From a virus, in the IMG/VR virus record IMGVR_UViG_3300019888_000013, positions 1 through 35,792 of that record: a DNA stretch of 35,792 bases; one strand, given 5' to 3'. Positions 3,619 through 20,800 of the stretch are shown piece by piece. The position numbers and the translations under genes were made by a program. Every line of letters begins with the position of its first letter. The first letter of the stretch is position 1. The notes beneath the pieces were generated by a model. The model ran no database searches. It worked only from the letters and a program-made list of their open reading frames with translations, and was not told the DNA's origin.

Positions 3619-4953
3619 ATGCGGACCAAGATCGAATCATTGTCAGCCGAGCAAACGGCGCTGTTTCCCGAATTCGTCCGGCGATGGACCGAGATCGGTT
3701 TGTGCACCGAGAAAGCCAACCGATCTGAGTCAGAACGCGGAGTCCGACTAGCTTACAAATTAGCAGGCGTAAGTCCGCCGAAGAAAATCGTTTGGTGCAC
3801 TTCACCATTATCGCAAGGATTAACTCGCGCGATTGTCTTTGGGCTTACCGAAGGCAAGATCAAATGCCCGAAGATTCAGAGACGCACTAGCGGCGTTGGA
3901 TCATCTGGTAGTCCGGTGGCCTCGGTTCGGGACTCGGTTTGGGACTCGGTTTGGGACTCGGTTTGGGACTCGGTTCGGGACTCGGTTGGGGCCTCGGTTT
4001 GGGCCTCGGTTCGGGGCTCGGTTTGGGCCTCGGGTTGGGCCTCGGTGTGGGGCTCGGTTTGGGCCTCGGTTCGGGGCTCGGTTTGGGACTCGGTTGGGGC
4101 CTCGGTTTGGGGCTCGGTTCGGGACTCGGTTGGGGACTCGGTTGTGGACTCGGTTGGGGCCTCGGTTCGGGGCTCGGTTTGGGCCTCGGTTCGGGACTCG
4201 GTTTGGCGCTCGGTTGGGGCCTCGGTTTGGGGCTCGGTTCGGGGCTCGGTTCGGGACTCGGTTGGGGACTCGGTTGGGGCCTCGGTTGGGGACTCGGTTT
4301 GGGCCTCGGTTCGGGGCTCGGTTCGGGACTCGGGATACGGACAGCATGACGCGAATTGGTTGGGATTCTACGAATATTTCGCCGAGGTCTGCGCCCTTGG
4401 CGAAGAGACGCAGAAACTTTCTGGACTATGGCTGATCGCCAAAAATGCCGGCTGGTTTCTACCGTACGATAACATCTGTTGGATTTCAGAACGTCACGAC
4501 ATTCTGAAAAGCGACGAACGTGGCAGATTACATTGCGAAGACGGACCAGCGCTTAGATACCCAGATAGCTGGGCGATCTATGCGGTCCATGGCGTGCGCG
4601 TGCCAGAGAGAATTATCACGGAGCCGCAATCAATCACGATCCCGGAAATCGAATCACAACAGAACGCAGAGGTTCGCCGGGTGATGATCGAGAGATTCGG
4701 ACAGGATAAGTTCATCCTTCAGTCCGGAGCCAAGCAGATTCACCAAGACGATTTCGGTACTCTATATCGTAAAGAGCTTCCAGGCGATGAGCCAATCGTC
4801 ATGGTCAAGGTCGTCAACTCCACGGCCGATCCAGACGGATCGTTCAAAGATTATTTCCTGCGTGTCCCGCCGACTTTCCGCACAGCGCGCGAGGCCGTCG
4901 CTTGGAGTTTCGATGTCGAGCCGGATTCCTACGAACTGGCCGCGCAGACATGA
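3619..4953 (+). CDS. DUF6745 protein with 35 tandem tetrapeptide repeats
   Basis: 444 residues in three parts. Residues 1-99 form a helical N-terminal region. Residues 100-239 are 35 uninterrupted four-residue units of the form [W/R/G][D/A/G]SV. Residues 240-444 match DUF6745 as I know it, with [14 protein letters not shown], a [20 protein letters not shown] core, and REAVAWSF near the end. Other DUF6745 proteins also carry Val-rich tetrad repeats before GQHD, so the design is a family trait. The function is unknown. The repeat could form a regular beta or helical stack. Its stop overlaps the next start (ATGA). Confidence 0.85.
3916..4335 (+). repeat. 12-bp tandem repeat, 35 units
   Basis: The unit is close to TGGGACTCGGTT. 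Variation is mostly confined to the first base of codon 1 (T, C or G) and the second base of codon 2 (A, C or G). The SV codons (TCG GTT) are almost invariant. All units are in phase with DUF6745. The array also keeps other frames open on both strands, which creates long false frames rich in GLGL or PNR. Confidence 0.95.
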
Positions 4954-5669
4954 GCATTCAGCCTTTTATCTGTCTAGGTGCGGAAACGATTAACGATCCC
5001 GCGCTCAACGGCGTCTCGCTCCTGGCTGAGCTTTTGTGGCGAAAAATTTATCAGGGTTGTGACAGTCACTGTCGGTTCAGTGACGATATCGAAGTGATCC
5101 GCGGTGCGCTTCTCGCAAAGCGACCCTCGATCCGGACTGAGCAAGTCGCTCACGCGCTTGATGAGCTCAAGCGCGCCAGCCTCATACACTCCCGATCGAC
5201 TGGCGCGAAAAGCTGGATTGAGATCGCCGATCCTTATCGACATCGTTCCAAATCGTATCGTGACCCGCGTTTCGGCTTTATGCCCGAGCCCGAGCGCGAG
5301 CAAAAAGAGCTGCCTCTTGGCCCGGTAGCTTTGTCGCCGCCGCCGGCGCGAGTAAGAATAGAACGAGAAGAAGAAAAAGAACCAAAACGAGTACTCGCTC
5401 GCAGTGGCGAGGATTCTTTACTCGAACAGATCCGAGAGATCGTTGACGAAAAGGAAATGGAGCAAAATGGCGGGATGTGGCGGACCCGGATCCGGCATTG
5501 CGCCAAGGCTGTCCGATACGCGATCGAGGATTGGAAACTTCGCACTCCGGCCAGCCCACCAATCAAAAATTCTCGCGCGGCCTGGCTGACCGATCGTTAC
5601 GCTCGCGCGTTGGTTGAAATTTCTAGTAATGCGATCTCACAAAGCAGGCAGTCTCACGGCGTAAAATGA
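4950..5669 (+). CDS. Replication-initiation-like winged-helix protein
   Basis: 239 residues, started at the ATG overlapping the DUF6745 stop. The N-terminal ~100 residues (ALNGVSLLAELLWRKIY, then DDIEVIRGALLAKRPSI, then VAHALDELKRASLIHS) have the helix pattern of the winged-helix domain of phage replisome organisers. An acidic and basic linker (EREEEKEPKR) and a helical C-terminal domain with RIRHCAKAVRYAIEDW follow. It is the only replication candidate in the window. Whether it loads a helicase or binds the origin is inference. Confidence 0.6.
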   Translation: MSIQPFICLGAETINDPALNGVSLLAELLWRKIYQGCDSHCRFSDDIEVIRGALLAKRPSIRTEQVAHALDELKRASLIHSRSTGAKSWIEIADPYRHRSKSYRDPRFGFMPEPEREQKELPLGPVALSPPPARVRIEREEEKEPKRVLARSGEDSLLEQIREIVDEKEMEQNGGMWRTRIRHCAKAVRYAIEDWKLRTPASPPIKNSRAAWLTDRYARALVEISSNAISQSRQSHGVK

Positions 5670-5684
5670 GATAGAAAAAGCGCG

Positions 5685-5753
5685 ATGAGTGGGAACTCCG
5701 GAAGTTTTTCGATGGATAAGCGTAGGAAACAAAAAAAGGGGGTGAGTTTTTAA
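5685..5753 (+). CDS. Possible 22-residue basic peptide
   Basis: An ATG opens MSGNSGSFSMDKRRKQKKGV and ends with TAA overlapping the next ATG (TAATG). It contains the Shine-Dalgarno sequence of the following gene, so it could be a leader peptide or only chance. Confidence 0.2.
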   Translation: MSGNSGSFSMDKRRKQKKGVSF

Positions 5754-5950
5754 TGAACGATAAAGAATTAGTCATCACATTCAAATGGACGGGCGACGTC
5801 GGCAATCTGTTGCCGACCGAGATTAACCGAATCGTTGCCAGCTGTGCTGAGCAAATGAACAAGACGGCCGGCAAATCGATCACTGCGGCGACCTATCTGT
5901 TCCAAGGGAAGGACCACAACGTTCCGATAAAAGACTTGGTCGGAGCTTAA
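5753..5950 (+). CDS. Hypothetical protein, 65 aa
   Basis: The start is supported by a strong AAAGGGGGTGAG sequence 6 nt upstream. The 65-residue product begins MNDKELVITFKWTGDVG and has one amphipathic helix (TEINRIVASCAEQMNK). No family is recognised. Confidence 0.55.
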   Translation: MNDKELVITFKWTGDVGNLLPTEINRIVASCAEQMNKTAGKSITAATYLFQGKDHNVPIKDLVGA

Positions 5951-6015
5951 AGTGCTTGGCAGTCGGCTGGCGGCTTAAGACGCCGGCGGCTGTCAAAACG
6001 CGGGCTGCAGTGTCT

Positions 6016-6330
6016 ATGGATTTGCTCGGAATTGAAAGAACTGAAGTTGGAAGTGTAACCGGCGAATTACGAAGCATCACTGATTTTGGCGGCGTTTACT
6101 TCTACATCTGGGACGCTCTGACCGGCCATCGCGTTCGTTGTGATATTTCCGAAGATTTGCTGCCAACTGCTATGGCGGCATTCCGTAAACGAGTTTCTGC
6201 TTACGGCCTGATTCACTATGACAGAAAGGAACGACCGAGGCGTATCACCGTTGAGGAAATTCATACCTTCAAAACGGAAGGTCTGCCGAAGGTCGATGAT
6301 GTAATCGGACTCTTTTCTGACGATGGCTGA
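6016..6330 (+). CDS. Conserved hypothetical protein, 104 aa
   Basis: The ATG at 6016 is the best-supported start; a TTG at 5956 would add 20 residues. The protein follows a pattern I know from a widespread family of uncharacterised small proteins: GELRSITDFGGVYFYIWDA, a cysteine-containing strand VRCDIS, RVSAYGLIHYD and a terminal LPKVDDVIGLF. These look like an OB-like beta barrel. Some relatives lie near toxin-antitoxin genes, but no partner is visible here. It is the last plus-strand early gene and converges with the minus-strand operon at 6351. Confidence 0.6.
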   Translation: MDLLGIERTEVGSVTGELRSITDFGGVYFYIWDALTGHRVRCDISEDLLPTAMAAFRKRVSAYGLIHYDRKERPRRITVEEIHTFKTEGLPKVDDVIGLFSDDG

Positions 6331-6350
6331 TCTGCGCTACGTGCAGCGTC

Positions 6351-6611
6351 TCATAGCTCAGAGGAAACCCATTCTGTTCGCGTTCCCTTGGCCAGTCCGC
6401 GCACCGCAGCTGAGAGATTATCCCACCACGGCTGATTTTTCAGGATGGCCACCACTTCGTAAGCGTGACCGTTCTCGAGCGCGCGGACAATCTTGCGTGC
6501 CTCGGATTCTTTTAGAACTAGCCAAAGCGCCGGCTCGCCAGCTTCATCGCCTTCGTCTCGAACATCGATTGCCTGCGGGATCTCAGCGCCGGGAAACACG
6601 GCTTTGCTCAC
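6351..6611 (-). CDS. Hypothetical protein, 86 aa
   Basis: GTG start overlapping the previous stop (GTGA). The 86-residue acidic protein (VRDEGDEAGEPALWLVLKES) has the look of a folded helical domain with an ALENGHAYEVVAIL helix. It is the last gene of the minus-strand run. A plus-strand frame at 6323-6616 covers the same bases but is arginine-rich and lacks coupling, so the minus frame is preferred. Confidence 0.55.
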   Translation of the reverse strand: MSKAVFPGAEIPQAIDVRDEGDEAGEPALWLVLKESEARKIVRALENGHAYEVVAILKNQPWWDNLSAAVRGLAKGTRTEWVSSEL

Positions 6612-6742
6612 CTTGAAAAATGCCGCCTGTCAATCAGCGACAATAAGGCCAGAAACTTCCACGTCGCCGTCGACTCAAGCTCGAGCGCGCGTTCGATTCG
6701 GCGCAGAACAAACCGTCGTTTGGCCGAGGACGTGACCTTCAC
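6608..6742 (-). CDS. Small basic protein, 44 aa
   Basis: A GTG-started frame links its neighbours through 4-bp GTGA overlaps at both ends. The product, starting MKVTSSAKRRFVLRRIERAL, is basic and probably helical with a short hydrophobic stretch (FLALLSLI). No homologue is recognised; the double coupling is the main evidence. Confidence 0.45.
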   Translation of the reverse strand: MKVTSSAKRRFVLRRIERALELESTATWKFLALLSLIDRRHFSR

Positions 6743-7095
6743 GACGCAAGCTTTCCGAGTTCAATTGCGGCATCAGAATCGACCGGCAACCTGCGCTTCT
6801 GGCGCATCTGCGCCAGTTCCTGAATCTCGGCCAGCAAATTTCTGGCTCGGCCCATGCCATGTTGCGCCTGGCTTCGCGTCAGCCCGAAGGCATCCACTCC
6901 GATTTTCATCATGGACCGCCTTTTTTTTTCGAACGGCTCTTGGAACGCAATCTTGCACACAACCTCGAATTGCCGAGTGCGTTCTGCTATCTCAGCCCGC
7001 TTTTCCGCTTTTTTTCGAAGCCAAGGTTCCCGGTGCGCGCGACTGCGAGCCTCTTGTCGGGCGCGCTCGATCAGTGCTTGCTGCTCATCCTCCAT
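6739..7095 (-). CDS. Hypothetical coiled-coil protein, 118 aa
   Basis: ATG start 11 bp inside the end of the hydrolase gene. The product is highly charged and almost all helical (ALIERARQEARSRAHREP, then KKAEKRAEIAERTRQFE). A second helix pair contains AFGLTRSQAQHGMGRARN, which could be a helix-turn-helix. The position directly after the lysis genes does not reveal its role. Confidence 0.55.
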   Translation of the reverse strand: MEDEQQALIERARQEARSRAHREPWLRKKAEKRAEIAERTRQFEVVCKIAFQEPFEKKRRSMMKIGVDAFGLTRSQAQHGMGRARNLLAEIQELAQMRQKRRLPVDSDAAIELGKLAS

Positions 7096-7570
7096 AAGGT
7101 TGGAGATCGTAAGCCAGTCCGTCGACCACAGCCGGGATGCCCGGCCACCAGCGATAGGTCACTTCCGGCGAGTCGACGCCGCCGCGGTTCGGGTCAGGAT
7201 TTATTCCGAGCCTCCGCGCGAGCGCGGCGCTGCCCTCGCCGAGCTTGTTGTGCGGCCCGACGTCGAACACGACCGCATCGCTCGATCTGCCTCGGTAAGT
7301 GACCAGCGCCTTGCACCCTAAAACGATATCGCTCACAAATTTGATGCACTCCGGCGGAAGCACGATTCCGGGCACCGCATCGGAATTGATCGGCTCGCCG
7401 TCTTTGTGCAATGTCGTGTCGGGTTGCCCGCACGGATCAATTCGCCAATTCGGGCTGCCGTCCACGTCCACGTCCATGTCGCCGGTGAAAATGTATCCTC
7501 CATCACCGCAATCGAAGATGTCCGCGGTGTAGCCTTCGCCCTTGCTCGTGATCGAGAAAAGTTTTATCAC
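7085..7570 (-). CDS. GH75-family glycoside hydrolase, putative endolysin
   Basis: 161 residues from a GTG that overlaps the holin-like stop. The sequence follows glycoside hydrolase family 75 (fungal-type chitosanase): DMDVDVDGS near 31-39, DPCGQPDTT, AVPGIVLPP, VVFDVGPHNKLGEGS and LGINPDPNRGGVDS. Asp103 and Glu112 are 9 residues apart, like the Asp and Glu pair reported as catalytic in a fungal GH75 enzyme. There is no signal peptide. Placed last in a holin-spanin cassette, it is the only candidate cell-wall hydrolase seen, so a peptidoglycan substrate is inferred. Chitosan-like activity is not excluded. Confidence 0.75.
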   Translation of the reverse strand: MIKLFSITSKGEGYTADIFDCGDGGYIFTGDMDVDVDGSPNWRIDPCGQPDTTLHKDGEPINSDAVPGIVLPPECIKFVSDIVLGCKALVTYRGRSSDAVVFDVGPHNKLGEGSAALARRLGINPDPNRGGVDSPEVTYRWWPGIPAVVDGLAYDLQPYGG

Positions 7571-7911
7571 TTGGATTTGCTCTTCTTGGTTTCCAGGTAA
7601 CTTTTTATTTCGGTCGCAATGGTGGACGTTGTGACGTTGCTCCAGTTGGTGAACGCGACCTGCCCGGTCACGAAGTAAGCCACCAGGAATGCGATCACAT
7701 ACTGAGTGGAAGTAGTTATCGAACCGAACACTCCAACTGATGTCGTCGGGAGCGCGTAAAGATGATTCACGGCCCAGCGCCAAACGAAAAGTTCGATTAC
7801 TATTCCGACCAAAACGATACAGAATCGCCGCCACGGAAAATAATCGTTCCGAACGCGTTTCGGTTTGCCGGCCAGCGCTGCCGCTGCGACTGGATCGCTC
7901 GGCGGGTTCAT
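7567..7911 (-). CDS. Holin-like protein with two membrane segments
   Basis: 114 residues; the ATG overlaps the spanin stop (ATGA), which fixes the start. After a basic N-terminus (KPKRVRNDYFPWRR) there are two hydrophobic helices, near 30-48 (FCIVLVGIVIELFVW) and 69-87 (QYVIAFLVAYFVTG), then a charged lysine-rich end (ETKKSKSK). Size and topology fit a class II-like holin, and the next gene is the putative endolysin. No sequence family is recognised, so the call rests on context. Confidence 0.6.
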   Translation of the reverse strand: MNPPSDPVAAAALAGKPKRVRNDYFPWRRFCIVLVGIVIELFVWRWAVNHLYALPTTSVGVFGSITTSTQYVIAFLVAYFVTGQVAFTNWSNVTTSTIATEIKSYLETKKSKSK

Positions 7912-8459
7912 AACCCGAATTTCAGGCCGAATTTTACGGCTGCGAAAACGATGCACGCTAAGACGCCGAGCCCGAGAGCGATCCAACTTCCCCACCAATG
8001 CATCCGATACCAATGAAGCGAGTTTTCGTCTTTGATTCTGGCGTTTCGCTCGCTGGTCGCATCGGCGGCCAGTTTATCGACCTGTCCGAAATATGCGTGG
8101 CTAAGCGCCGTTACCGTGGCTTTAGCCTTGTCGGCTTCGGTTAAATGAGTCTCGAGGTCGCTCTGGTTATTACTGGCGTCGTCCAGCGTGGAGTCTTGAT
8201 CGTCGATCTTCTGGACCAAGGCTTTCGGCACGTCCTTGAGCTTTTTTACTTCGACATCGATTTCCTTCTGTCTTTTCTGCGCGACGCTCACTGCCGTTTG
8301 CGCCTTTCGAGCCGAGGCGTGAGCGGCATCGACTTCGACAGACAGTTTACCCGCCGCCGCACGGATTTTAGATGAGTCCGGCGATAAATATGTTTTGGGC
8401 GCGGTTCCGCACGAGCAAAGCGCGCCAACCGATAATAGGATGACCGCAAGACGGATCAC
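7908..8459 (-). CDS. One-piece spanin (u-spanin) candidate
   Basis: 183 residues, GTG start overlapping the previous stop. The N-terminus is a lipoprotein signal (MIRLAVILLSVGALCSC) with likely lipidated Cys17. Residues 30-150 are a long charged coiled coil. The C-terminus is a membrane helix near 155-175 (WIALGLGVLACIVFAAV). An outer-membrane lipid anchor plus an inner-membrane helix in one chain is the known layout of unimolecular spanins such as phage T1 gp11, which fuse the two membranes at lysis. The host would therefore be diderm. Confidence 0.75.
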   Translation of the reverse strand: MIRLAVILLSVGALCSCGTAPKTYLSPDSSKIRAAAGKLSVEVDAAHASARKAQTAVSVAQKRQKEIDVEVKKLKDVPKALVQKIDDQDSTLDDASNNQSDLETHLTEADKAKATVTALSHAYFGQVDKLAADATSERNARIKDENSLHWYRMHWWGSWIALGLGVLACIVFAAVKFGLKFGL

Positions 8460-8581
8460 GGTTTTTTGTTTCTTAAACGAGCGAGCAACGACTTCGCGTC
8501 TGCGAGAATCGCTCCGATTTTCTTCGCCCCGATTACGTATCCGAACACCAGCCCGAGTCCTAGTCCGATAATGAATGCCAT
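8456..8581 (-). CDS. Small membrane protein, 41 aa
   Basis: MAFIIGLGLGLVFGYVIGAK forms one glycine-rich membrane helix, followed by a basic tail. The TGA overlaps the spanin start (GTGA). A GTGACA box lies 17 nt before the ATG. It could be a second holin or antiholin in the lysis cassette. Confidence 0.6.
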   Translation of the reverse strand: MAFIIGLGLGLVFGYVIGAKKIGAILADAKSLLARLRNKKP

Positions 8582-8631: not shown

Positions 8632-8650
8632 ACGCGGTCTTCAACCGCGT
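8632..8650. terminator. Inverted repeat at the end of the 8641-9075 gene
   Basis: ACGCGGT and ACCGCGT form a perfect 7-bp stem around a 5-nt loop, overlapping the stop codon of the upstream minus-strand gene. There is no T-run, so this may be an RNA structure and not a terminator. Confidence 0.4.
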
Positions 8651-9075
8651 GGGCCGTGGAAGCGGCCTTTACGCGGTTTCATTCGCTCTTCCAACGTGGT
8701 CAGGATCTCGAGCACCTTGCCGTTGATCCGGGTCTGCTCTTGCACGAAATCGGTCATAACTCCGGTCAGCGGGGTCAGGTCGGTTTTTGCCTTCCACTCC
8801 GAGTTCTCCGAGGTTAGCTTGATGATTCGATCGTTGCTTTCGTTGTTTTTGGCGTGGACTTCGGAGCGGTAATTGGTCAGCTCGAGGTGCGCCGCCTGGT
8901 AATGCGATTTCCAGGCTTCGGCATTGTTTTGAGCTACGCGAATGGCTTCGTCCTTAGCTTCCGAGATCGAGCGATGTTTTTGGGCCTGGAGCCAGAGTTT
9001 GCCGGAATAAATCCCGGCCGCAGAGCCGCCGAGAACGACGCAGGTTTCGATCCCTCTCAGCAGAATTTCCCACAC
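8641..9075 (-). CDS. Membrane-anchored coiled-coil protein, 144 aa
   Basis: GTG start with TTGACA 14 nt upstream and no Shine-Dalgarno sequence. An N-terminal hydrophobic segment (residues 3-22, EILLRGIETCVVLGGSAAG) precedes about 90 residues of coiled coil and a basic end. It opens the lysis cassette. The topology resembles an inner-membrane spanin subunit, but the one-piece spanin downstream makes that less likely. Confidence 0.6.
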   Translation of the reverse strand: MWEILLRGIETCVVLGGSAAGIYSGKLWLQAQKHRSISEAKDEAIRVAQNNAEAWKSHYQAAHLELTNYRSEVHAKNNESNDRIIKLTSENSEWKAKTDLTPLTGVMTDFVQEQTRINGKVLEILTTLEERMKPRKGRFHGPRG

Positions 9076-10722: not shown

Positions 10723-11922
10723 TTAGAGTGCCGACGCAAAAATATCGTTAAGGCTGATCGATCGAACGAGTCGCTGCTTGCGCTCGTAAATATTTCCCTT
10801 CCACTGCTTGTAGGTGGCGTCCTCCGCCAGAATTTCGTTGCCGCTTGGTGCCAGGAAGGCGCTTAGCCAACCGTTGAGTAAATAGATCACGTTCAGAACC
10901 TGGAATGCGCGCGGCGCTTTCGGCAGATCAATCTCTGTCTCGGGGTCGTCGGTCTGGAAATAATCGTATTGCAGCCGGCTCTGGACCGTAATCGGCATTT
11001 CGGTGATCCCGCCCCCCGATCCGATCAGGACGATTTGATAGCTGTAAACAAAGCTCTCATATTCGCTTCTGGTGTCGGGAATGACCGCGTATTCGCGCCA
11101 GAACTCGATGATGCCGCCACCGATCGATTTGAAGGTTCCGGGGGATCCGCCCACATAAGTTCCGCCGATCGGGCCTGCAGTTCCAAACGGGATGTCGACA
11201 TAATTAGAGAGAAACTGCCAGTAAGGGAGCTTATAAGCGTATGGTTTGGGATCGACCTTGAACGGAATTTCGAACTGCGGCGGACCGGCTAACTGGGCAA
11301 CAGTAAAATCGCCATCGAAAAGGCAGCGGCGAAGATCCGGCGGCGTGGCCCAGCCGATCGTGATGTCCGATGAGCCACCGCCTGTCCCGACGGTGAGGAC
11401 GAAATAGCGTTTGTAAACGGCGGGCGGCCAAGTCGGGTTGGTGGCGACGAGGGTAATGATGAAAAAGCCATTGAAGGCCGACGCTGTCCCGGTAATGCGC
11501 TTGGTGGTGGCGTTATAGGAAAGTGTGCCGGGCAAGTTTTCGACCGAATAAATGGCCGGGATATCGCTGGTGACCGCCATGTTTATCGTCGCTCCAGGCG
11601 CAACCGATTGTCCGGCGACATTCGTGATGCTCGGAATTATGGGCGAGCCGGTTGCAAAGACGCTGAAAAGTAGAGTTTGCGAGATCGACCCAGTCGAATC
11701 ATTAGCGTGGAATGTGATCTGTTCGAAGGCATCAAATGCGTGGGTTGGCCCGGTATATGTGAGCTTGAGCGTAGCGGGCGATCCGAAATCTAACTGAAGG
11801 TCGAAATTGGGGTTCGGATCGACCGTGATCGAGCTATACCCCTGCTGCGCGATCACATAAAAATACTTCACCCCGGGGGAGATTTTGATCGGGCCAGGGA
11901 TTGGCGACGCGAGATAGGACAT
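10723..11922 (-). CDS. Putative tail-tip protein with Ig-like domain, 399 aa
   Basis: CTGACA lies 16 nt before the ATG. Residues 95-185 contain a cadherin/Ig-like fold of the He_PIG type, seen in LPGTLSYNATTKRITGTASA followed by a valine-rich strand. The C-terminal half (about 190-399) has an aromatic-rich region with YWQFLSNYVDIPFG and FWREYAVIPDTR and no family I can name. Its position after the tape measure fits a distal tail or adsorption protein. No baseplate hub of the lambda J type is visible, so this may carry that job. Confidence 0.6.
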   Translation of the reverse strand: MSYLASPIPGPIKISPGVKYFYVIAQQGYSSITVDPNPNFDLQLDFGSPATLKLTYTGPTHAFDAFEQITFHANDSTGSISQTLLFSVFATGSPIIPSITNVAGQSVAPGATINMAVTSDIPAIYSVENLPGTLSYNATTKRITGTASAFNGFFIITLVATNPTWPPAVYKRYFVLTVGTGGGSSDITIGWATPPDLRRCLFDGDFTVAQLAGPPQFEIPFKVDPKPYAYKLPYWQFLSNYVDIPFGTAGPIGGTYVGGSPGTFKSIGGGIIEFWREYAVIPDTRSEYESFVYSYQIVLIGSGGGITEMPITVQSRLQYDYFQTDDPETEIDLPKAPRAFQVLNVIYLLNGWLSAFLAPSGNEILAEDATYKQWKGNIYERKQRLVRSISLNDIFASAL

Positions 11923-11984: not shown

Positions 11985-12338
11985 ATGGCCGCAGAGCTTT
12001 CCCTGAACATCAGCGCTAATGAAACCAAGAATGGCGTAACTTTTGGAGCGACCTTCAACGGCACAGTCGACGTCGCCGGGGACAGTCCCATCTTCGAAGT
12101 CAAAAGCATCGCGACCACGGACACCACGCTCGATCTTGGCGCGGTCGGGACGCCCGGCTATTTGATCGCCAAGAACCTCGACGCCACCAATTACATCACC
12201 CTCGGCGGCGACGGCACCAACTACTTCGACAAGCTCAAAGCCGGAGAGTTTATGGTGAAACGCTGGAATGGCGCGGCTGTTCACGCCAAGGCGAACACCG
12301 GCGCGTGTTTGCTGCAGTATCTGCTCATCCCAGATTAA
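11985..12338 (+). CDS. Inverted paralogue of the 17936-18289 protein, 117 aa
   Basis: The ATG at 11985 is chosen because the product then matches its paralogue in length (117 aa) and start (MAAEL against MAQEI). Shared segments include SIATTDTTL/SIATTETVL, GTxGY, an LGG-containing strand, A-x-ANTxA and a final xLLI. The protein looks beta-rich, like a small phage surface or tail protein. It is the only plus-strand gene inside the late operon and converges on the tape measure with 5 bp between stops. Transcription from the main late promoter would read it antisense. Confidence 0.8.
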   Translation: MAAELSLNISANETKNGVTFGATFNGTVDVAGDSPIFEVKSIATTDTTLDLGAVGTPGYLIAKNLDATNYITLGGDGTNYFDKLKAGEFMVKRWNGAAVHAKANTGACLLQYLLIPD

Positions 12339-12343
12339 CGAGG

Positions 12344-14032
12344 TTACTTGTTCGCCGACGAATCGTCGGTGTTTTTCGCGATGGCTTTCAGATAGTCGCG
12401 CGATTCTTCCTGCACCTTTTTCAGTGCGTCACGGTCGATCTGGTTATCGAGCCCGAGCGCCTTTTTCAATTGTTCCGCGCGGTTTTGATGCTGCTGCGCG
12501 CCCGCCACGTCGCCGTGAAGCTGCCGATCGCGCGCTTTCTTTTCTTCGCTCTCAGCCTCGCGCGCCAACGCACCCGCGCTTGGACCGTGGGTTTCGACGC
12601 CCCCGATGACCCTCGAACTAGCGATGTCATGCAGGCTAAGGCCCGCCGGATTAAGCGCGCGATGTTGAGCCTCAAAGTCTCGTTTCTCATCCGGTGCCTG
12701 CTCTCGGAGCTTCTCGCGCAGCGCCTCTTTCGCGGCGCGATCTATTTCCGCCTTGGTGCTTTTTATTTCCTTCTCAATATCGAGCTGCTTTTCTTTAAGC
12801 GTTAGCCGGTCGTCTTCGTCGCTGGTGCTCTTTCCTTTTTCTTGGAGCTCATTTAGCTCTTTCTGGAGCGAAAGCAGCCGCTCCCTCGGATTCAAGCTTT
12901 CGTCGGCAAACTTGCGCTCTTTTTCCGCAACTTTCTCGCGATGTGTCTCGAGCGCGTCGGCCTGCTTTTTCTCGGCAGCCAGTACCGCCTCTTTTGACTC
13001 ATCGACTTTGAGCTGTAACTTTGGCGCGTCCTCAGCAGCGTGCGGCGCTGAGAGATTTTTCTCCGCCGCATCCAATTTGGCCTGAGCGCTGGCTACATCC
13101 ACATCTCGGCCAGCCTCTTTAATCTTGACCAGCTTTTCTTCGAGCTCGATTGCTCTTTTTTGGGCTTCTTCCTTTCTATCGATCGCGGCCAGGGCGAGCT
13201 CAGCTTCCCGATTTGCTTCGGCTTGAAGGGGGACATTCCCCTGCTTGATCGCCTCGCCTACTTTTTCTTCTCGCGTCTTTTCTACTTTCTCGCGCTCGGC
13301 GGCGAATGTGCCCTTTGTCTCGCGGGTTTCGGTCTCGTCGTTCGCTTCCCTGGCTTTCCCGGCTATTCCAGTTCTTTCTTTTGCGAGCGCCTCTTGAATT
13401 TTGGCCGCATCGGCCTCGCGCTCCTGTCCGATGGCCCTGATATTTTCATCCAGCTTTTTATCTCTCCCGGTAGTGAAAGAGCGATAAATTCCTTCCGCGA
13501 CGACCGAGAAGAAATTCGTGCTAGATTTGCTGGCCTCTTCGGCTTTTTTGCTCGTTTCGGCAAACTGCTTTTGTAGTTCCGACAGAGATTCGTAATGAGG
13601 ATTTTGGGACGCCGCTCTTGAAACCGATTCGATCTCTTCATGTAATTTCTGAGCGGCCGCTCCGATTTTGGATATCTCGATAGCGAGCACGCCGGCCGCT
13701 ACCAGGCCGCCCAAGGCTCCCAAAGGAAGATTTAACGCTCGCTCTGCGCTCTCCAATGCTTGGCCGAAAATCTGGATCCCGCCAGCTCCGGAGGTGAATT
13801 CCTGCGCGAGTCGCCCGATCTGGGTCGCAACTCGGTGGTTGGATCGAAAGAAACCGCCCTCCGCGTCCGTAGCGCGTTCCAGGCTCTGGGTATATGAACC
13901 GAAGCTGCCCGCGCCTTGGTCCCCGGCGGTTTTCGCGGCTGCCGCAAACGATACTAAATGCTGCTGTGCGGTCTGGAGTTCGGTGTATAGCTGTTCGGCG
14001 GAAAGTCCGAGGGAAATTGATACGTCACTCAA
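12344..14032 (-). CDS. Tape measure protein
   Basis: 562 residues, TTG start with TTGACT 17 nt upstream. The N-terminal 60 residues (GLSAEQLYTELQTAQQHLVSF) have the typical start of tape measure proteins. A hydrophobic segment lies near 95-120 (LPLGALGGLVAAGVLAIEI). From 140 to about 500 the chain is almost entirely charged coiled coil rich in E, K and A. It should set tail length; 562 residues suggests a short tail for a siphovirus. It is placed after the tail tube and chaperone-like genes, as expected. Confidence 0.75.
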   Translation of the reverse strand: MSDVSISLGLSAEQLYTELQTAQQHLVSFAAAAKTAGDQGAGSFGSYTQSLERATDAEGGFFRSNHRVATQIGRLAQEFTSGAGGIQIFGQALESAERALNLPLGALGGLVAAGVLAIEISKIGAAAQKLHEEIESVSRAASQNPHYESLSELQKQFAETSKKAEEASKSSTNFFSVVAEGIYRSFTTGRDKKLDENIRAIGQEREADAAKIQEALAKERTGIAGKAREANDETETRETKGTFAAEREKVEKTREEKVGEAIKQGNVPLQAEANREAELALAAIDRKEEAQKRAIELEEKLVKIKEAGRDVDVASAQAKLDAAEKNLSAPHAAEDAPKLQLKVDESKEAVLAAEKKQADALETHREKVAEKERKFADESLNPRERLLSLQKELNELQEKGKSTSDEDDRLTLKEKQLDIEKEIKSTKAEIDRAAKEALREKLREQAPDEKRDFEAQHRALNPAGLSLHDIASSRVIGGVETHGPSAGALAREAESEEKKARDRQLHGDVAGAQQHQNRAEQLKKALGLDNQIDRDALKKVQEESRDYLKAIAKNTDDSSANK

Positions 14033-14343: not shown

Positions 14344-15357
14344 TCAGGGCACAGGGCGCAGAAACTCACCCCAGATGCTAACTGATTCCGCATCGTAATT
14401 TGCGAGACCTTCAACGTTGGCCTGCCTCAAATTAGAACGATTGAAAGCCAATTCCATTCCCGCCATTACGCTCTCTGAGCTCGTCGGATCAACCTGCGAT
14501 TGCCAAGTCGTCCACGAGATTTCTTTGCTCACGACCACCGGGACGTCGTTCATCACCGCGTCGGCCGTTACCACGTTGAATGTCTCGCTGAACGCCACTT
14601 GCAGGCTAACGTCCATGTGACGAAGGACGTGAATGAACTCTTCCCTCGTCACCCAGGGATAGACGACCAATTTGTGCTGAGGAAACTGCTCGAACATTTC
14701 CTGAATGTTCTTAAGGATCGGCGACCCGCCGCACTCGATTCGGGCGTTGTTGATATGAAAATGAAGTTTTTTATTCTTTTCGTCGGCGTAGCGAATCGCG
14801 GCTACGGCCTGTAAAAGTTGATTCTTCAACGGCCGGATCGCCCCGAAGCAACCCACGTTGAGCCTGTTCTTGTGCTTCTTGTGACGTTTCCTCGAATGAA
14901 AGTTCGACGGATAATAGTTGGGCAAATAAATCACGTCTGAATTCGTCAGGGCCGCGAACTCCTGGTTCGTCCTACGATCGTTGCAGCTTACCCGAACATT
15001 CGGAAATTGCGGGTAACGCAACAGCCAATCCATTGCGATCCCCTCCAGGCTGACGAAGGGCAAAGCAGAGTGATTGCGTACGATCCATTGAACGTTGGGA
15101 TGCAGCCGATGCAGAACCTCGAACTTTTCAGGCACGACCCAAAGGGCCTCGATGAACACCACGTCGGGCTTGAATTTTCTGACCTCGCGATCGATGTCGT
15201 TGTTATCCGTAACCACGACGAGCTTGCTCGGAATATCGAGCACATCGTTCACCATGTCGGAGCTGAACCTGGCGGAATTGTAAAGCCCGCTCGACATCGT
15301 CGAGTATCCTCGATTTCCATACAGACCTTGTTTTTTGACGATGAAGAGCGTGCGCAT
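14344..15357 (-). CDS. Glycosyltransferase, GT-B fold
   Basis: 337 residues; TTGACT lies 16 nt before the ATG. The two Rossmann-like halves are visible: FKPDVVFIEALWVVP in the first, and LNVGCFGAIRPLKNQ followed by FSETFNVVTADAVMNDVPVV in the second. The latter is the sugar-nucleotide binding segment of GT1/GT4-type enzymes. No signal or membrane segment is present. Such genes in phage structural modules may glycosylate virion proteins or change host surface sugars. Sugar donor and acceptor cannot be read from sequence. Confidence 0.8.
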   Translation of the reverse strand: MRTLFIVKKQGLYGNRGYSTMSSGLYNSARFSSDMVNDVLDIPSKLVVVTDNNDIDREVRKFKPDVVFIEALWVVPEKFEVLHRLHPNVQWIVRNHSALPFVSLEGIAMDWLLRYPQFPNVRVSCNDRRTNQEFAALTNSDVIYLPNYYPSNFHSRKRHKKHKNRLNVGCFGAIRPLKNQLLQAVAAIRYADEKNKKLHFHINNARIECGGSPILKNIQEMFEQFPQHKLVVYPWVTREEFIHVLRHMDVSLQVAFSETFNVVTADAVMNDVPVVVSKEISWTTWQSQVDPTSSESVMAGMELAFNRSNLRQANVEGLANYDAESVSIWGEFLRPVP

Positions 15358-19363: not shown

Positions 19364-20800
19364 TCAGATGCGAACCAGCCAACAGCGTCCCTTGGTCTCG
19401 AAGGCGTCGCCATAGAGCCGGGTCACAGCTTTCCAGACGCCGGCCTCGTCGATATCGTGCCCGCAAAGGATCCCTCCCGGCTTAACTTTCGGGAGCCACG
19501 CCATGATATCTTGTTTCACTGCCTCAAAGGAGTGATCGCCATCGATAAAAACCGCGTCGATCGATTCGTCTGAGAAATCCTTAGCCGCTTCCACGCTCGG
19601 TTTGGAATGGATCTGCACGTCCACGCCGAGCGCGGCCATGTTCGCCCGAAACGCTTTCTCGACGTTCCCGCCGTGGGCCGACAGATGCAGCCGGTGCTCT
19701 TCGTTCGCCGGCTCACCGCAAAACGTATCGACAACGTGAAGAGCAGGGAGCACGGAGTTCGGAGTTTGGAGTTCGGAGCAGAAAGAGGACATCGCGGCGA
19801 TCGAGCGGCCCAACCAGCATCCTATCTCCACAAATTTTCCGCCATCCGGGATCTGCTGAGCAATCTCGCGATACAAATCCTCGTAATCGAACCAGCCGTG
19901 GATCTCGCGCCAGGTTTTGATGTGCGAATCCGTCCGGGCCACCTGGCCGGGCCCGAACCTGTATTCTTTCTGGCCGACGTGTCCGAGCGCAATCCTGGTA
20001 TCGACCATGATTTTATAGCCCAGCTTGCGCGCGCGCTCGCAAAAAAACCAATCCTCGCTGATCCATTCCCTAATCGGGAATCCATCCGGGTCTTTCGGAA
20101 CAAACGGTGAGGGCGATTCCAACGCGGAGAATTCTCCCGTCACAACTCCGCTCGGAAAAAAGTCCCATTCAATTCGCTGGCCTCCGGCGTCGCTTCCATG
20201 GTTGTGATATCGCAGCGCCATGCCGCGGATCTCTTCTCCGGTAACTGGATGCAGCGTCAGGCTGCCTTCTTTCATCGCGATAAGGACTTCGCGCTTAACC
20301 GCCATGAATCCGCGGCCGCACCTTCGCACTTCTGCCAGCCCGTTCTCATCGGGTTCAGGCGCTTTATCGAACGTCGCCAGGCACGGCGTCGGCGAGCTCG
20401 TGTCCTCTTTCTTCGGGTAAATTCCGTAAACCAACGGCAGATCATGTCCGAGCAATCGGTCCACGTCAGCGCGGGTGAACCGGATATCGGCGTCGATGTT
20501 GATCCAAACGTCGCAATCGCTTTCCAGAAACTTGTTGGCGATAAAATTCATCCCGCGGTTCGCGTGGCTATCGCTCGCCCGGAGCATGTGCGCTTTGCGC
20601 CCGCCAAACGCGACTGCGTGATCGATCATAAACGACGCCATCACTTGGCCGTTCCCGTTGTCTAAGAGCGGTAAATAGATTTTCGGATTAGTAGGCTCTT
20701 CCTCTAATCGATCGGACGCCTCCGATCGCGCCGCTACATGCTCAGCTTCTTCGAAGCTTTTAATTTGTGTTTCCAAGGGAGGGCCGCGCGACCCTATCAC
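19364..20800 (-). CDS. Glycosyltransferase-methyltransferase fusion
   Basis: 478 residues. The N-terminal part (about 40-300) resembles a GT-A glycosyltransferase: VWINIDADIRF supplies the DxD motif, followed by RCGRGFMAVKREVL and WISEDWFFCERARKLGY. The C-terminal part (about 325-478) is a class I SAM methyltransferase of the Methyltransf_24 type: KFVEIGCWLGRSIA (motif I), LHVVDTFCG, AVFIDGDHSFEAVKQDI and VKPGGILCGHDI. Both domains probably build or decorate a glycan on virion or host surface. The GTG start lacks support; a TTG at 20776 is an alternative. A repeat-derived insert lies near 19745-19785. Confidence 0.8.
   Translation of the reverse strand: MIGSRGPPLETQIKSFEEAEHVAARSEASDRLEEEPTNPKIYLPLLDNGNGQVMASFMIDHAVAFGGRKAHMLRASDSHANRGMNFIANKFLESDCDVWINIDADIRFTRADVDRLLGHDLPLVYGIYPKKEDTSSPTPCLATFDKAPEPDENGLAEVRRCGRGFMAVKREVLIAMKEGSLTLHPVTGEEIRGMALRYHNHGSDAGGQRIEWDFFPSGVVTGEFSALESPSPFVPKDPDGFPIREWISEDWFFCERARKLGYKIMVDTRIALGHVGQKEYRFGPGQVARTDSHIKTWREIHGWFDYEDLYREIAQQIPDGGKFVEIGCWLGRSIAAMSSFCSELQTPNSVLPALHVVDTFCGEPANEEHRLHLSAHGGNVEKAFRANMAALGVDVQIHSKPSVEAAKDFSDESIDAVFIDGDHSFEAVKQDIMAWLPKVKPGGILCGHDIDEAGVWKAVTRLYGDAFETKGRCWLVRI
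19745..19785. repeat. Short GGAGTT(C/T) direct repeat inside a gene
   Basis: Near-repeats of CGGAGTT/TGGAGTT occur about every 8-9 bp within the methyltransferase domain and encode SELQTPNSVL between motif I and the next strand. The low-complexity character differs from the surrounding code. Confidence 0.5.

Follow-up and report, generated by a model that had tools for sequence, protein, structure and literature searches.

The window, the whole stretch of 35,792 nucleotides analysed here (IMG/VR record IMGVR_UViG_3300019888_000013), carries a GH75-type gene (7085..7570, minus strand) that probably encodes the endolysin of the phage, with a muralytic chemistry that we infer. The initial annotation had placed a chitosanase-type hydrolase in the endolysin position, and this placement is supported by an overlapping gene cassette, by recurrence in relatives and by the lack of any other recognisable lysin. 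If true, uncultivated soil phages break cell walls with a fold that is, to our knowledge, not listed among endolysins, and they hold a new enzyme for wall cleavage that may be selective for deacetylated peptidoglycan, a substrate resistant to ordinary lysozymes. GH75 genes of phages as such have been known from publications since 2022, where they figure as auxiliary metabolic genes.

Assignment to the GH75 family

The open reading frame starts with GTG at position 7570, stops at 7085 on the minus strand and encodes a GH75-type (double-psi beta-barrel) glycosidase of 161 aa. Its longest mechanical version extends back to 7834. Two observations favoured the start at 7570: it shares GTGA with the stop of the gene upstream, and the aligned relatives begin at about the same residue. 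Read from the sequence, the protein has no signal peptide and no N-terminal transmembrane (TM) segment.

The protein is almost certainly homologous to GH75 enzymes, although the curated Pfam model misses it; the sequence match to the viral chitosanase V-Csn, a family profile, the catalytic residues and the fold agree in this assignment. A phmmer search of the PDB sequences matched the five entries of V-Csn with E values from 5.8e-8 to 2.8e-7, and beyond these entries no credible PDB sequence match was obtained. A family profile of 24 rows matched V-Csn over its full length with an E value of 1e-37. With 6e-8 against the PDB and 1e-37 for the full-length profile, a chance similarity was excluded. 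The initial annotation had named Asp103 and Glu112 as the GH75 pair, and the phmmer alignment bears this out: D103 and E112 align with D148 and E157 of V-Csn (DVGPHNKLGEGS versus DVGPSSKIGEGS), and the VDVDG stretch with D35 and D37 aligns with the conserved IDADG of V-Csn. The codons of the D-D-D-E set lie on the minus strand at 7466..7468 (Asp35, the first Asp of the set, equivalent to V-Csn D34), 7460..7462 (Asp37, equivalent to D36, the proposed base), 7262..7264 (Asp103) and 7235..7237 (Glu112, the proposed proton donor). All four acids were invariant in the 12 aligned rows of the short type of phage protein to which the window protein belongs; across the 24 rows D37, D103 and E112 were invariant and D35 nearly so. 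The conservation of the four catalytic acids in 12 of 12 divergent relatives thus indicates that catalysis is under selection.

The initial annotation had named the lack of a GH75 profile match as grounds for refutation. Taken literally, this lack holds for the window protein by itself, whose place in the family is based on its relatives and on V-Csn. The window protein had no match in Pfam, including the GH75 model PF07335, nor in PHROGs or NCBIfam. PF07335 matched five of nine close phage rows (best E value 9e-5) and, once the bacterial rows were included, 18 of 24; bacterial relatives with 45 % identity exceeded the Pfam cut-off (48 bits versus 27). The catalytic motif is common to the window protein and the fungal and bacterial GH75 chitosanases of PF07335, but the window protein lies below the detection of that model. 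The fungal enzymes work extracellularly.

The predicted structure of the window protein was of moderate confidence (pLDDT 63, pTM 0.63). Its top PDB match in Foldseek was V-Csn (E 1.9e-6, prob 1.0), and all five V-Csn entries led the list (prob 1.0, TMq 0.58-0.61). They were followed by kiwellin, the papain inhibitor SPI and expansins, all of them with a double-psi beta-barrel, the fold class assignment being taken from PMC9485262. According to the same source, GH75 enzymes are inverting hydrolases, and the barrels of GH45 and GH75 cut beta-1,4 glycans (PMC9485262). V-Csn (PDB 7TVL-7TVP; PMC9485262) resembles the window protein in whole-domain homology, D-D-D-E residues and double-psi beta-barrel fold; it differs in its length of about 225 aa with an insertion domain, whereas the window protein has 161 aa without that domain, and it falls into a separate clade of the tree. 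Viral structural neighbours of the model included phage peptidoglycan transglycosylases of the RlpA type (ranks 6-9, E 0.013-0.07, prob 0.82-0.98). The lytic transglycosylases RlpA and MltA share the barrel fold class with the window protein, but a sequence relation to RlpA was not detected: the RlpA-type profile PF03330 matched none of 24 records, window included, at E<=1.

The putative lysis cassette of the window

The GH75 gene is the last in a chain of four genes joined by 4-bp overlaps (GTGA, ATGA, GTGA): a 41-aa hydrophobic open reading frame, a lipoprotein with a C-terminal TM segment, a two-TM holin candidate and GH75, all on the minus strand. The two-helix holin candidate that had been noted next to GH75 was found again at 7567..7911, encoding 114 aa with two hydrophobic segments, read from the sequence, and a basic tail; its stop and the GH75 start share the GTGA overlap at 7567..7570. 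A weak match (E 0.1) was its only one to a PHROGs holin. The one-piece spanin candidate of the initial annotation was likewise recovered, at 7908..8459, where the stop overlaps the start of the holin candidate by ATGA (7908..7911). It has 183 aa, a lipobox-like N-terminus, a coiled coil and a C-terminal TM segment (residues 160-178). A single-sequence scan returned no relatives of this protein; its architecture recurs in the related phage records L005, L014 and L033. Holin and spanin of the window were assigned by topology alone. The 41-aa open reading frame with a hydrophobic segment (8456..8581) overlaps the spanin candidate by 4 bp and is of uncertain coding status. A 144-aa protein with an N-terminal hydrophobic segment and a helical tail (8641..9075, minus strand) is possibly a further lysis or tail-end protein; its positional counterpart in L033 lies at 10814-11074.

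The cassette follows the late genes: the genes upstream include members of the TerS, TerL, portal and major capsid families. An integrase-like gene is located at the far end of the window. Gene content and overlaps resemble those of canonical phage holin-endolysin-spanin cassettes, but a GH75 domain takes the place of the lysozyme, amidase or peptidase catalytic domain. Within the late gene block are also a glycosyltransferase-like gene (14344-15357) and a Methyltransf_24 gene (19364-20800, E 2e-20). Close to the integrase-like gene, the opposite strand encodes a 444-aa protein (3619-4953) with a strong DUF6745 match (E 1.3e-64).

The proposed course of lysis is as follows. The stand-alone GH75-type double-psi beta-barrel glycosidase would be synthesised as a cytoplasmic protein that has no signal peptide and would enter the periplasm when the two-TM holin, encoded just upstream, permeabilises the inner membrane. 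There it would cut the beta-1,4 linkages in the glycan strands of peptidoglycan, with E112 as the putative acid and D37 as the base, assisted by D35 and D103, and possibly with a preference for N-deacetylated glucosamine positions. Last, the outer membrane of a diderm host would be disrupted by the lipoprotein/TM spanin, whose gene directly precedes that of the holin. Lytic role, peptidoglycan substrate and deacetylation preference are what we infer. A precedent for an enzyme of deacetylated peptidoglycan is the lysozyme DslA of Bdellovibrio, a wall enzyme specific for GlcNAc-deacetylated peptidoglycan, for which its authors draw a comparison with chitosanases (PMC7511926). DslA differs from the window protein in having a lysozyme-superfamily fold instead of the double-psi beta-barrel and in being the exit enzyme of a predator, not a phage enzyme (PMC7511926).

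Search for another lysin

The initial annotation saw no other lysin in the window, and the profile searches agree: no cell-wall hydrolase family was matched among the 48 open reading frames of the window (Pfam E 0.01, PHROGs 0.001). The families Phage_lysozyme, Amidase_2, Peptidase_M15_3 and SLT were each found in 0 of 24 records with working controls, the searches for Phage_lysozyme and Amidase_2 being run on 13 plus 11 records. A search for GH19 had no positive control and is not counted as an absence. On five long contigs of relatives with 274 open reading frames of 95-450 aa, no other recognised wall hydrolase was among the matches listed (Pfam 1e-4), a survey that rests in part on the best 25 of 27 Pfam families. 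A GHL15-type glycosidase, on the record of L012, and a putative phage metallopeptidase family were seen in this survey. The window record is linear and possibly incomplete, and many of its open reading frames are unannotated; an unrecognised lysin family could be hidden among them.

GH75 genes in related phages

Searching IMG/VR first with the single protein and then with alignments of increasing size yielded 11 further distinct phage records of the short type, a count from which L007 was excluded as a near-copy of L006. These relatives have 156-176 aa and are 40-61 % identical to the window protein. Read from their sequences, the 12 short-type proteins all lack an N-terminal signal and an N-terminal TM segment. 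In a maximum-likelihood tree of 45 GH75 rows, from which near-copies, fragments, L035, L085 and L069 were left out, all 12 formed one phage-only clade (support 100/98, present in 100 % of 200 bootstrap trees). A tblastn search of 50,697 GenBank phage records with the proteins of the window, L001, L008, V-Csn and L031 gave no match; thus there was no cultivated phage for comparison.

In the relatives, genes for membrane proteins and lipoproteins are grouped near GH75. L005 and L014 have, as the window does, a lipoprotein-like gene of 232-243 aa with a C-terminal TM segment. Matches to PHROGs holin families occurred near GH75 in L001 (E 7e-4), L002 (2.7e-4) and L012 (5.4e-13); in L013 the match to Phage_holin_10 was weak (0.0034) and missed the cut-off. 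Small genes for membrane proteins or lipoproteins numbered 47 in the 2 kb upstream of GH75 across 24 loci, compared to 17.5 expected, and none of 20,000 random draws of a same-strand gene of the same locus reached this number. At least one such gene was present upstream in 21 of 25 loci, L041, L042 and L048 scoring zero. This test omitted L007 and L044 as near-copies of L006 and L043 and used L003 and L004 in place of L001 and L002; the draw had one locus less, as L035 had too few other genes. The gene directly upstream had a TM segment for 14 of 26 GH75 genes (L044 kept) versus 44 of 271 other genes (Fisher p 4e-5). Genes were called as the longest open reading frame and TM segments by simple hydropathy, which is crude but identical for test and background genes. 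The V-Csn group, L076-L086 with 11 loci, was in neither of these upstream-gene tests. Four-base overlaps numbered 14 among 32 loci (L007, L035, L044, L082, L083 and L086 left out), where some open reading frames may be spurious, e.g., in L002. An upstream membrane gene was absent in L012, whose holin match lies downstream. Directly upstream of GH75, L012 has two putative glycosidase genes, 5187-6356 (weakly GH42-like) and 6730-7833 (GHL15, E 1.8e-10).

A scan with the V-Csn-like bacterial alignment found 14 phage loci with a longer type of GH75. In L037, L040, L043 and L045 the GH75 gene clearly starts on an ATGA overlap with the gene of a small membrane protein; L042 has the ATGA overlap with a weaker hydrophobic segment before GH75. 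The contig of V-Csn itself was identified as L076 (100 % identity in the scan with V-Csn). Here the V-Csn start shares an ATGA overlap with an open reading frame of one predicted TM segment, and the gene lies downstream of a capsid-like and upstream of tail-fibre-like genes, as named from their sequences. An 81-aa membrane protein overlaps GH75 by ATGA in L079 as well. L081 had no clear adjacent membrane gene at first view, and the overlap survey placed an 86-aa hydrophobic open reading frame before its GH75; L077, L080 and L085 were without a clear adjacent TM gene.

A sister phage, L033 (IMGVR_UViG_3300009012_000004, a 41.5-kb record), is collinear with the window across the tail region, with identities of, e.g., 61 % over 247 aa, 67 % over 117 aa and 63 % over 186 aa, and keeps the order of the lipoprotein-TM gene and the hydrophobic gene. 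In the slot of GH75 (12022-12510) it encodes a different protein of 162 aa that has a 4-bp ATGA overlap with the preceding gene. This protein had no match in PHROGs, PDB or phages, and a scan returned no relative but itself. Its alignment with GH75 reached a probability of 4 % in hhalign. A TDRMPH...GIDLNYAACSALGL motif is, as we take it, reminiscent of RlpA. An RlpA-type enzyme was considered, dropped as a claim and retained as a lead: the protein reached Pfam DPBB_1 with an E value of 0.09 only, had nothing at E<=1 in the PF03330 search, and its structure model was unusable (pLDDT 41, pTM 0.27). The swap is suggestive of a GH75 slot that is exchangeable between sister phages, as expected of a lysin position; it does not prove a lytic slot, because the L033 protein matches no assigned family.

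Endolysin or auxiliary metabolic gene

Wu et al. (2022) chose 142 viral GH75 genes, removed the lysozyme-like ones and regarded the rest, V-Csn included, as auxiliary metabolic genes (PMC9485262). By this account the enzyme is a chitosanase that aids chitosan breakdown by the host or, after lysis, by the community. V-Csn does hydrolyse chitosan, its D148N and E157Q mutants lose activity, E157Q nearly abolishing it (PMC9485262), and homologues occur in soil bacteria. For the window gene we nevertheless consider this role unlikely. One of two soluble viral GH75 proteins was active on chitosan (PMC9485262), and the 12 short-type proteins have neither signal nor N-terminal TM segment, so extracellular chitosan is out of their reach without lysis. 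Moreover, the gene shares a cassette of overlapping genes with those of membrane proteins and lipoproteins, and the short type forms a clade of phage proteins only. The main text of PMC9485262 contains none of the words lysis, holin, tail, peptidoglycan and signal peptide; the lysis reading is thus unweighed there in those words. A review from 2025 still counts GH75 among the validated metabolic genes and at the same time cautions in general terms that glycosidases of viruses can be endolysins (PMC12713726). A proposal of GH75 as an endolysin was not found in the literature searched, judged mostly by titles and abstract openings. We see an even chance that GH75 is an unrecognised class of phage endolysin as a whole, such that the chitosanase auxiliary metabolic genes of soil phages, V-Csn among them, are mainly lysis enzymes of holin cassettes, and that their chitosan activity reflects a tolerance of, or preference for, glucosamine in the N-deacetylated peptidoglycan of their hosts. 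Lysis would then be the simpler explanation of the best-validated metabolic gene of soil viruses, which serves as an argument for carbon cycling driven by viruses. V-Csn has already been cloned, purified and crystallised, so the endolysin claim is directly testable.

A virion-associated depolymerase or entry enzyme of tail or baseplate, acting on capsule or wall at infection, would agree with the place of the GH75 gene behind the tail module of the window and with tail-fibre-like genes, read from the sequences, beside GH75 in L002 and L076. Lysis cassettes, however, normally follow tail genes, the 161-aa protein is a stand-alone domain without fibre or attachment region, and a membrane-protein gene overlaps its gene, which makes a function in the virion very unlikely. 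We give hardly any credence to a GH75-derived accessory of the cassette, e.g., a wall-binding or regulatory protein next to a true endolysin that escaped recognition. The many unannotated open reading frames and the L033 slot, filled by a protein without an assigned family, leave room for it; the retention of all four catalytic acids in the 12 divergent proteins speaks against it.

Chromosomal relatives

Bacterial chromosomes also hold GH75 genes away from phage genes. The closest non-phage relatives found were chromosomal GH75 proteins of Melainabacteria-type cyanobacteria (L015-L018, Obscuribacter and relatives) with about 45 % identity, which bear long N-terminal extensions. Strong GH75 matches occurred in two of 387 Verrucomicrobiota genomes. 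The surroundings of these genes look chromosomal and not like a prophage, so the phage was not assigned to a Verrucomicrobiota host. In L073, a 13-kb Verrucomicrobiota contig, a GH75 gene for 197 aa overlaps the gene of a 107-aa TM protein (10970-11883); their neighbours look like ordinary metabolic genes, and no gene in the vicinity was recognised as a phage gene. The TM protein has a relative in L035, a membrane protein of a phage, and the two genes are possibly a domesticated holin-lysin pair. The chromosomal GH75 of L071 (9423-11023), likewise from a Verrucomicrobiota genome, is 44 % identical to a phage protein; beside it lies a two-TM gene of 328 aa, and the neighbourhood is cellular.
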